Source of the DNA: Candidatus Zambryskiibacteriota bacterium
Lineage (GTDB): Bacteria; Patescibacteriota; Minisyncoccia; Phycocordibacterales; DATDWN01
Reading direction: 5' to 3'
Assembly (NCBI GenBank): GCA_026394775.1
Contig: JAPLZY010000009.1
Span: 1-46,574, forward strand
Length of the DNA stretch: 46,574 nt
Positions 25,876 to 37,494 of the stretch are shown here, in pieces. Within the stretch, counting starts at the first letter, position 1. Each line of letters begins with the position of its first letter. A model generated the notes under the pieces. It had not been told where the DNA came from. It saw nothing but the letters and a program-made list of their open reading frames with translations, and did no database searches. Position numbers and translations under genes: made by a program.

Positions 25876-26826
25876 TTAACGTCTAAGTTGACTATTTAAA
25901 TATTTAGTGAGTATTGCTTCAAATATTTTTTCATTGCTTGTGATCACGAGTGTCTTTTTATCAATAAATCCATACAAAAGGAGGGCCGCACCATCTTGGT
26001 CTCTGATCACACGGACATCTTTGTTTTTATAGGTTTCATCAGTAAATACCGAAGGGTTTGTTTGCAGATAGTTTTCTAGTTTAGGGAAAAATGGACTTAA
26101 ATCTTTACCCATTCCACTTTCCCATTCAAGCATTCCTGAGTACACAATCCCAAAATCATCGGGCTCCAATATAACAAAAGGTTCGGCGGTGTCGTATGAA
26201 TATATACCTGCCATATAGGTATTTATGTTTCGTCGGAGTGCGTCGCTTGCACTTGGTGCAAGTGCTGTGACGAATGCCAATGTTTCTAGTTGTTTAGATT
26301 CAAGAACAAATTTTGTATAGAGGACTGTGTTTACAGGCGCACTCAAAAGACCTTTTTCTTGAAGAAGAGGTGGTGCAATCTCTCCGACATCTGCTTTTTG
26401 TATTTGAATATCTTTTTTCTGAGTGTAAGGGATCAGTGTCCGCTCGATATCCACAGCAGAAATAGTGTTTGGTGTTTTTTGAGAATTTAAGAAATAGATT
26501 CCTCCGAGCACCACACCACCAATGATGAATAAGAATACACCGAGGAGTATTTTTAAAGATGCGCCTGTTGAAGATGGTTTTTCTGTATACAGAGGTTCGT
26601 TGCGTTCGATTTTCTTTTTTTGTTCAGCAAGAACAATGGTTGCAATAGTTTCTTTTTTTTCTTCAATATGTCCCTGCATATCACCTTGAAAAGTACGCAA
26701 TGTTTTGAGTTCTGGGTTGGGAACATATCCTTTTGTATCTTCAACACGTCGAGTGCTTTTCTCTTGGGCTTGGATACTGTCTACTATAGATTGAAGACTA
26801 TTTTTCTGCAAAGGTTCATCTTTCAT
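25876..26826 (-). CDS. Single-pass membrane protein, unknown function
   Basis: The 316-residue product has an N-terminal cytoplasmic region (1-88), charged and helical. One membrane helix follows at about 90-113 (LKILLGVFLFIIGGVVLGGIYFL), then a soluble outer domain of about 200 residues. The outer domain has IERTLIPYTQKKDIQIQKAD, VNTVLYTKFVLESKQLETLAFVTALAPSASDALRRNI, EPFVILEPDDFGIVYSGMLEWESGMGKDLSPFF and KKTLVITSNEKIFEAILTKYL. I do not recognise a named family. It stands alone, 37 bp upstream of the DksA-like gene on the same strand. Confidence 0.72.
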   Translation of the reverse strand: MKDEPLQKNSLQSIVDSIQAQEKSTRRVEDTKGYVPNPELKTLRTFQGDMQGHIEEKKETIATIVLAEQKKKIERNEPLYTEKPSSTGASLKILLGVFLFIIGGVVLGGIYFLNSQKTPNTISAVDIERTLIPYTQKKDIQIQKADVGEIAPPLLQEKGLLSAPVNTVLYTKFVLESKQLETLAFVTALAPSASDALRRNINTYMAGIYSYDTAEPFVILEPDDFGIVYSGMLEWESGMGKDLSPFFPKLENYLQTNPSVFTDETYKNKDVRVIRDQDGAALLLYGFIDKKTLVITSNEKIFEAILTKYLNSQLRR

Positions 26827-26857
26827 TTACATATAGTATATCAGGAAATTTGGGTAT

Positions 26858-27105
26858 AAAAAAAGTGCATCGTCTCCAGGGGGAAGTGTGATGCACCTAT
26901 GAATTTAGGTAGGGATATTCCCCACCTTCCTCATCAGAAATTTACAAAAGGGCGGTTGGACGCGGTTGCCGCCCCTTGTGCCAAGATACCCCAGGAAGGA
27001 AGGAGATGGGTTGGTATCCTGGCAAGCTTGTTCTGGAAAGTGTGGTTTGGCCCATGCCACACTTTCCGTGGTGAGGTGGCGTGTAGGTTAGTACGCACCA
27101 TCTTC
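26858..27105 (-). ncRNA. Candidate structured non-coding RNA (six hairpins, own promoter and terminator)
   Basis: Read on the minus strand, this 248-nt segment has five strong helices in a row and a weaker one: 27099-27075 (7 bp with a bulge), 27067-27035 (perfect 11 bp, GGAAAGTGTGG/CCACACTTTCC), 27024-26979 (12 bp), 26979-26944 (11 bp), 26927-26907 (8 bp), and 26896-26865 (GTGCATC/GATGCAC, 7 bp) followed by seven T. In three helices a mismatch on the plus strand (A opposite C) is a G-U pair on the minus strand, so the minus strand is the RNA. No coding potential fits, and it lacks the hallmarks I know of tmRNA, SRP and RNase P RNA. Family unknown. Confidence 0.7.
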
Positions 27106-27112
27106 TACGTAT

Positions 27113-27141
27113 ACATTACGTCTGTTACTCCCCACTGTCAA
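27113..27141 (-). promoter_or_regulatory. Promoter for the candidate ncRNA
   Basis: On the minus strand a perfect TTGACA (27141-27136), inside the 3' end of the NYN gene, is followed after 17 bp by TAATGT (27118-27113), a weak -10. The predicted start is near 27105, just before the first hairpin. Confidence 0.5.
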
Positions 27142-27703
27142 CTCCTTTTTGTGGAAAGTTTGGTTTGTTAAATCTCCCCCGTCTTTTTTCTTGTCGATAG
27201 CCGATTAGATATTTGGCTGGGTTTTGGTCGAGGTCTATAAAGTCATCTACTGCTTCAACAAGCTTAGATGAAGAAGATTTTCCAAATGAGATCGCTTCCA
27301 CCTGGCACCCTTGGTTTGTACGCAAATATTCAGCAAGTGGCACAAAGTCACCGTCTCCTGTGACCAGTATTACTGCGTCGAGTTTTGGCGCGAGTTTAAT
27401 AGCGTCAACCGCCATCCCCACATCCCAATCCCCCTTTTTAGCCCCACCGGAAAATATTTGGAGATTTTTTGTTTTAGTTTCAATACCGATTTTCTCAAGC
27501 GCATCGAAAAAGCTTTTTTCTTCACCGCTTTCTGTAGTGATTACATATGCGACCGCGCGGATCAGTGAACGGCCAGCAAGACCATCTTTGACCACTTGGT
27601 CAAAGTTTACCTTGCATCCGTAGAGATTTTTAGCGGTGTGATAGAGGTTTTGGGTATCTATAAAAATTCCAACTCGTTGATTCTTGTGTTTAATGACTGA
27701 CAT
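27125..27703 (-). CDS. NYN-domain (LabA/DUF88, PIN-like) RNase family protein
   Basis: The 192-residue protein has the NYN fold motifs: VGIFIDTQNLYHTAKNLYG (about 11-29, acidic D16 and N19), KKGDWDVGMAVDAIKLAP (about 89-106) and AVILVTGDGDFVPLAEYLR (about 111-129). It then has IDLDQNPAKYLIGYRQEKRRGRF at the C-terminus. The conserved acids are present, so metal-dependent RNase activity is plausible. It sits immediately upstream of the candidate ncRNA, whose -35 lies within its last codons, so the RNA may also be cotranscribed as a 3' segment. Confidence 0.88.
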   Translation of the reverse strand: MSVIKHKNQRVGIFIDTQNLYHTAKNLYGCKVNFDQVVKDGLAGRSLIRAVAYVITTESGEEKSFFDALEKIGIETKTKNLQIFSGGAKKGDWDVGMAVDAIKLAPKLDAVILVTGDGDFVPLAEYLRTNQGCQVEAISFGKSSSSKLVEAVDDFIDLDQNPAKYLIGYRQEKRRGRFNKPNFPQKGVDSGE

Positions 27704-27770
27704 ATAAAATATATTAAATAGTTAACTAATGTATGAAAAAATAGAACAGGTTAAGTATAGCATGAGCCTC

Positions 27771-27985
27771 AATACTATTTTAAAACAACACGTATATTCG
27801 CCTGGTGGCGAATTACTATGCTCGCCAATCAAGAAAATAATCAACTTCTGACGGCTACCTTCTCGCAAACTCCTCGTTGAGTACAACTTCGTCAAACAGT
27901 GCTTCAGGTCACACCGTCCCACCTGAGTACAGGTGACAGTCGTTATTTTCTAATTGGCTGTGCAATGTTGTTTTAAAATAGTATT
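27771..27985. repeat. 215-bp MITE-like element with perfect 20-bp inverted ends
   Basis: AATACTATTTTAAAACAACA (27771-27790) is the exact complement of 27966-27985. Inner sequence is also partly inverted (GCCAATCAAGAAAATAA against GCCAATTAGAAAATAA on the other strand), and smaller hairpins ATTCGCC-TGGT-GGCGAAT and ACCTG-AGTA-CAGGT lie within. It has no ORF. It lies between the XRE gene's 3' end and the NYN gene's 5' end. No clear target duplication is seen. Confidence 0.75.
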
Positions 27986-28007
27986 TTCGTCTTGATGATA
28001 ATTCAAA

Positions 28008-37166: not shown

Positions 37167-37237
37167 GCGGGATTAGTTTAGTGGTAGAATGACGCACTTC
37201 CAATGCGTAGACGGGAATTCGATTTTCCCATCCCGCA
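37167..37237 (+). tRNA. tRNA-Gly (anticodon TCC)
   Basis: GCGGGAT (37167-37173) pairs with ATCCCGC (37230-37236). The anticodon stem CGCAC/GCGTA-like holds TTCCAAT, reading TCC. GAATTCGATTTTCC is a slightly unusual T arm. Discriminator A; CCA not encoded. Confidence 0.92.
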
Positions 37238-37238
37238 C

Positions 37239-37278
37239 AAATAGTAAAAAACCGGCTTTTGCCGGTTTTTTACTATTT
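37239..37278 (+). terminator. Terminator after tRNA-Gly(TCC)
   Basis: An 18-bp perfect stem with TTTT loop: AAATAGTAAAAAACCGGC (37239-37256) against 37261-37278. Confidence 0.9.
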
Positions 37279-37494
37279 GACAGGGATGGAGCAAGAGTGC
37301 CTGCGCGCTCTTACGTGAGAATTGGACTGACCGCAGCTATGTTTTTCTACCAAGAAAAACAAGCGAGGTGGGGCCAGCAGAAATTTGTGAGCGACGGCGA
37401 GCAAATTATCTGGGCTGCGATTCTCCTGTCCTTAGCTAAGCATAGACTTGATTTTTAATCTAGATAATGTTAAGTTCACTTCGGAGACAGATCA
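37279..37494 (+). other. Gap with a possible degenerate coding remnant
   Basis: Codons from 37279 to 37458 are open and translate to a run containing RIGLTAAMFFYQEKQARW and SDGEQIIWAAILLSLA, GC-richer than the surroundings. No start or ribosome site exists inside; the open frame begins in tRNA-Gly and its terminator. I do not call a gene. The rest (37459-37494) holds the ribosome site of the next gene. Confidence 0.4.

Follow-up and report, generated by a model that had tools for sequence, protein, structure and literature searches.

Our results point to an RNA gene in a 298-nt gap of the window, that is, of the whole 46,574-nt stretch of DNA analysed (contig C28 of G000, a 753-kb CPR genome); the gap is flanked by a gene for an NYN-domain protein and one for a putative membrane protein. 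The segment held in this gap would be an independently transcribed, intrinsically terminated minus-strand ncRNA gene of an undescribed family, coding for a stable trans-acting small RNA and occupying an ancestral site, a reading to which we give a probability of about one half. The segment has no detectable relatives and similarly folded spacers abound, so it is a modest lead; its main interest is as an element that keeps its position while changing fast and being dispensable. The features on which the argument draws are as follows.

27125..27703, minus strand: NYN-domain protein, upstream neighbour (Pfam PF01936, E 1.8e-35)
27136..27141, minus strand: -35 box TTGACA, 6/6 consensus, within the NYN ORF (sequence)
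27113..27118, minus strand: -10 candidate TAATGT, 3/6 consensus, 17-nt spacer (sequence)
26858..27105, minus strand: candidate structured ncRNA, 248 nt, six hairpins (fold, z -5.0)
27077..27100, minus strand: hairpin 1 (predicted fold)
27035..27067, minus strand: hairpin 2, 11-bp stem (predicted fold)
26979..27024, minus strand: hairpin 3, 15-bp stem (predicted fold)
26994-27006, minus strand: hairpin-3 loop, 13 nt, pyrimidine only, UCUCCUUCCUUCC (predicted fold)
26947..26977, minus strand: hairpin 4, 9-bp stem, 13-nt loop CAACCGCGUCCAA (predicted fold)
26907..26927, minus strand: hairpin 5, 9-bp stem (predicted fold)
26858..26898, minus strand: intrinsic terminator, 9-bp stem (hairpin 26863-26898) followed by T7 (sequence and fold)
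26929..27076, minus strand: possible helix CCUCA (27072-27076) / UGAGG (26929-26933), enclosing hairpins 2-4 as a junction
26835..26843, minus strand: extended -10 box TGATATACT of the membrane-protein gene, between terminator and ATG (sequence)
25876..26826, minus strand: conserved putative membrane protein, 316 aa, downstream neighbour (ORF)

Fold, promoter and strand of the segment

A sequence-only reading of this DNA had described six consecutive helices in 26858-27105 and a terminal hairpin with seven T, and both were recovered here: all six hairpins are present in the minus-strand fold, the last of them being the stem at 26863-26898 that precedes the T7 run. The minimum free energy (MFE) of this fold, -93.7 kcal/mol (z = -5.0), was reached in none of 200 shuffles. 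The CCUCA/UGAGG helix may in addition close hairpins 2-4 into a junction; pairing as good was obtained in 4% of shuffles of the unpaired bases. A pseudoknot between the hairpin-3 loop and the GAGGAAGG stretch is conceivable by eye, yet it was rejected as it is not the top pairing among the unpaired stretches.

The promoter proposed in that reading, TTGACA-17-TAATGT, is borne out in part. Both boxes and the spacer are present, and the -35 box does fall inside the NYN gene, but the -10 box is weak, with 3/6 consensus positions, and the promoter scan gave no call there. The strand had been considered fixed by A-C mismatches of the plus strand that become G-U pairs on the minus strand, and these positions are real (26911/26923, 26984/27019 and 26949/26975). 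However, the MFE is the same for either strand (minus -93.7, plus -93.8) and each strand has six G-U pairs, 63 of the ~75 pairs being common to both; it is thus the terminator, and not the G-U pairs, that gives the strand. The minus strand is favoured by the T-run and by the fold z-score, which is -5.0 on this strand against -2.7 on the plus strand.

Known RNA families and the genomic background

No known family was recognised when the segment was scanned with the covariance models of Rfam 15 at the gathering score. The best match below threshold, CcsR1 (RF02791), scored 18.6 bits (E 0.036) against a cut-off of 65.3 bits, and the sub-threshold matches are at chance level. The earlier view that the segment is not RNase P, tmRNA or SRP RNA also held, with no Rfam match to any of them and no tmRNA found by ARAGORN, either in the window or in 672 of the 753 kb of G000. 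Bacterial class A RNase P RNA is likewise G+C-rich and structured, with a similar composition, but RF00010 has no match within the window and the RNase P RNA of this genome is encoded on another contig (C26:10164-10630). A search of 21 genomes (G000 and 20 relatives) gave no bacterial small SRP RNA (RF00169), and the segment was considered as the missing RNA; it is no candidate, because RF00169 does not match it and it is missing in close relatives. To our knowledge, CPR bacteria are largely unexplored for small RNAs, and the literature on these RNAs yielded nothing on the NYN - membrane-protein locus. As for ribosomal RNA, the 16S rRNA gene of G000 (contig C8:75816-78255) carries intron-like insertions, being interrupted by an insertion of ~700 nt, and the 3' end expected directly past the second part of the gene was not found there.

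The segment had also been described as far more GC-rich and structured than other gaps, and here the two halves of the claim part. Among 138 gaps of 200-900 nt taken from 672 of the 753 kb of the genome, its gap ranks 4th by G+C, near the one that holds the RNase P RNA, but only 58th by folding excess. The gaps with a stronger folding excess are mostly multi-copy repeats, and when folds were scanned along the full window, 37201-37400 and other regions surpassed the segment. Folding energy alone is therefore weak evidence here, since structured spacers, most of them dispersed repeats, abound in the genome, and z-scores by themselves are poor indicators of RNA genes in these genomes, where many spacers are hairpin-rich repeats. 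Two such elements lie in the window. The first, at 27745-28000 just upstream of the NYN gene, is a large palindromic element (z -8.1) with perfect terminal arms of 20 bp, and related copies in G000 and many relatives mark it as a dispersed repeat. The second, at 37250-37445, adjoins a tRNA-Gly gene and is strongly structured, with a terminator-like hairpin; parts of it recur in G000 and many related genomes, as expected of a dispersed repeat.

This background raises the possibility that the segment is hairpin-rich intergenic filler without gene function, for example a decayed relic of the palindromic repeats of the genome. Long gaps commonly fold as strongly or more, dispersed repeats account for both structured gaps nearby, the congeneric sister species has a short gap and, as described below, homologues were not found among the genomes searched. 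On the other hand, the segment is single-copy in its genome and resembles none of its repeats, it lies in one of the most G+C-rich of all gaps, and it has a perfect -35 box ahead of it and a terminator at its end. The same site also carries a structured, terminated element in six further species, and in four of these the element has a covarying core. We consider filler a real possibility, if a somewhat unlikely one.

Elements at the same site in relatives

Conservation in relatives, by which the sequence-only reading was to be checked, did not appear at the level of the RNA itself. Searches with blastn gave no homologue in 98 relatives and none in phages or plasmids, and a single-sequence covariance model built from hairpins 2-4 gave none in 397 genomes of the order; at the same site in other species, too, no homologue in sequence or structure was found. 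What is kept throughout the family is the gene order NYN - gap - membrane protein, and in 7 of the 13 family genomes compared, G000 included, a structured, terminated element lies between these two genes. The six other carriers (G002, G003, G007, G008, G009 and G011) have it on the same strand, with lengths of 131-214 nt, G+C of 0.45-0.56 and z-scores of -2.4 to -6.7, and in most of them a TTGAC-type promoter precedes it.

The elements of G002, G007, G009 and G011 (191-214 nt, G+C 0.50-0.56) are like the window RNA in site, strand, possession of their own promoter and terminator, and strength of fold, though the -10 box of the window RNA is weak. They differ from it in having a common core, made of a stem, an AA/GA internal loop and a GGG...CCC stem, then GUUCUUU; this core is absent from the window and its genome. 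All 15 pairs of the core are kept in the four elements and 11 are changed on both sides, counts that lean towards structure because the alignment was trimmed by hand (one base per arm removed from G009 and a bulge from G011, with apical loops and linkers also shortened). A covariance model of this core, R1, found in the 397 genomes only those four species and two further matches, in G283 and G139, which were rejected as terminator-like hairpins.

In a tree made from the NYN and membrane proteins the carriers are scattered: G007 and G009 stand by G008 and G013, G002 by G006, G011 by G010 and G000 by G001, and G013, G006, G010 and G001 have no element in the NYN - membrane-protein gap. The distribution is patchy even inside one genus-level clade, and the only other species of the genus of G000, from an assembly that is 81% complete, has a short gap with no RNA at the site. 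Since the four core carriers span the g2 part of the tree, the RNA would be ancestral in g2 with later losses, and the simplest account is that the g2 ancestor had the element, which would then have been lost repeatedly. Position alone suggests that the window RNA is orthologous to the elements of the relatives. The ancestor of the Zambryskibacteria family probably already had an RNA gene between the NYN and membrane-protein genes; this RNA would evolve very fast and be lost time and again, and such a history would make it dispensable.

The same comparison bears on the neighbouring genes. The idea that the RNA and the putative NYN RNase are functionally linked found no support, because NYN, unlike the RNA, is present nearly throughout the order (37 of 41 relatives, most of them lacking an RNA of this kind). 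The closest named record of the NYN protein comes from the Patescibacteria MAG UBA910 and the next ones mostly from Candidatus Zambryskibacteria. In relatives the genes are ordered rpsO-NYN-pnp or rpsO-NYN-membrane-pnp; in G000, tblastn found no pnp in 672 of the 753 kb. It is conceivable, though we find it rather doubtful, that a clade-specific RNA gene sits in the rpsO-NYN-(pnp) RNA-metabolism locus of Zambryskibacteria and acts through its RNA as partner or substrate of the adjoining RNA-processing proteins, fast evolution having left only its position, promoter, terminator and high degree of structure. The segment could also be the structured 3' end of the NYN mRNA, protecting or regulating that transcript and perhaps serving as a substrate of the NYN RNase, and indeed the NYN ORF contains the -35 box, and the segment comes right after the NYN stop on the same strand. 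Yet that -35 box is a perfect TTGACA, and the near-consensus promoter of G002 and G007, TTGACA-17-TATTAT, is located wholly downstream of the NYN stop. That nearly every genome of the order has NYN, in most cases with no RNA of this kind, argues against this reading as well, and we regard it as very unlikely.

On the other side of the segment, the terminator ends ~30 nt ahead of the ATG of the membrane-protein gene and the order of the elements is conserved, as would be expected if the segment were a regulatory leader (attenuator or riboswitch) acting by terminator read-through. However, the stretch from terminator to ATG contains the extended -10 box, and boxes like it are found in relatives both with and without the RNA. 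The membrane-protein gene, which has orthologues in 35 of 41 relatives and whose 316-aa product matched no Pfam family, is not accompanied by the element in at least six relatives, and no riboswitch family matched the segment. Because this gene has its own -10 box by the ATG regardless of the RNA, we do not take the RNA as its leader and hold that role to be quite unlikely.

Possible mode of action and coding capacity

A separate RNA gene therefore remains our preferred reading. Transcription of the segment would begin at its own promoter and end at the intrinsic terminator; stiff G+C-rich stems would resist RNases, making the RNA stable, and would present the 13-nt loops of hairpins 3 and 4, which, being exposed, would base-pair with transcripts or bind a protein. 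Our confidence in this proposed mode of action, in which a stable small RNA acts in trans, is low. If the segment is transcribed, a 753-kb genome would hold a structured RNA of no known family, and the locus would be a site at which an RNA gene is replaced or lost again and again within a bacterial family.

The hairpin-3 loop is the most distinctive part of the predicted fold, as a loop composed only of pyrimidines has a chance of ~0.0004 for one loop. It exposes an anti-Shine-Dalgarno word that was as accessible in 2 of 150 shuffles. CcsR1, a Rhodobacter sRNA with CCUCCUCCC loops, has stacked hairpins and a pyrimidine-rich loop as the segment does; its loops differ from the UCUCCUUCCUUCC of hairpin 3, and a loop of the CcsR1 type is present in only 3 of the 7 elements at the NYN - membrane-protein gap. 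Action of the CcsR type on Shine-Dalgarno sites was rejected as a general mechanism, for even though the exposed loop is present, such sites are near background in this genome (30 of 578 starts, compared with 21 after shuffling; 1/30 in the window). A genome that hardly uses Shine-Dalgarno sites makes anti-Shine-Dalgarno action unlikely. In several genes of G000 a -10-like box is found no more than ~10 nt from the ATG, and this together with the near-background Shine-Dalgarno frequency suggests that leaderless transcription is common in this genome. In a duplex search of all loops against the 578 start regions, the hairpin-3 loop gave 32 hits, compared with a shuffle mean of 20.2 and a maximum of 33. 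The target excess for this loop is at most weak, and target enrichment clearly above shuffles was not found at these 578 regions.

The segment also contains an ORF of 55 codons (26934-27101, minus strand) whose ATG at 27101 lies 4 nt past the predicted transcription start, so that it might be a leaderless gene for a small protein. Most genes of the genome are without a Shine-Dalgarno site, and the RNA is likewise spanned by an ORF in G003 (43 codons) and in G009 (64 codons), each beginning no more than 5 nt from the predicted start. ORFs as long are nevertheless found in 8-26% of shuffles, with 26% for the one of 55 codons, the peptides look mutually unrelated, and the window peptide had no relative in 98 genomes save for a chance match of 23 residues. 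In addition, four other elements are without such an ORF, and the core in g2 keeps its pairs while its apical lengths vary freely. Taken together, these observations make a small-protein gene very improbable.

Examination of the pnp loci of related genomes gave a side result. A hairpin located ~40 nt upstream of the polynucleotide phosphorylase gene pnp at many loci is conserved in Paceibacteria, with a stem, UAG/CUA, an internal loop and a second stem. Compensatory changes were seen at 10 of its 14 pairs in an alignment of 22 sequences from 22 related genomes (L077, L079, L084, L121, L138, L141, L142, L145-L147, L150, L152, L155-L157, L159, L160, L163, L168, L169, L172 and L173). This hairpin has no Rfam match and is absent from G000; it is a candidate for a new family of autoregulatory leaders and probably a better lead than the segment RNA.
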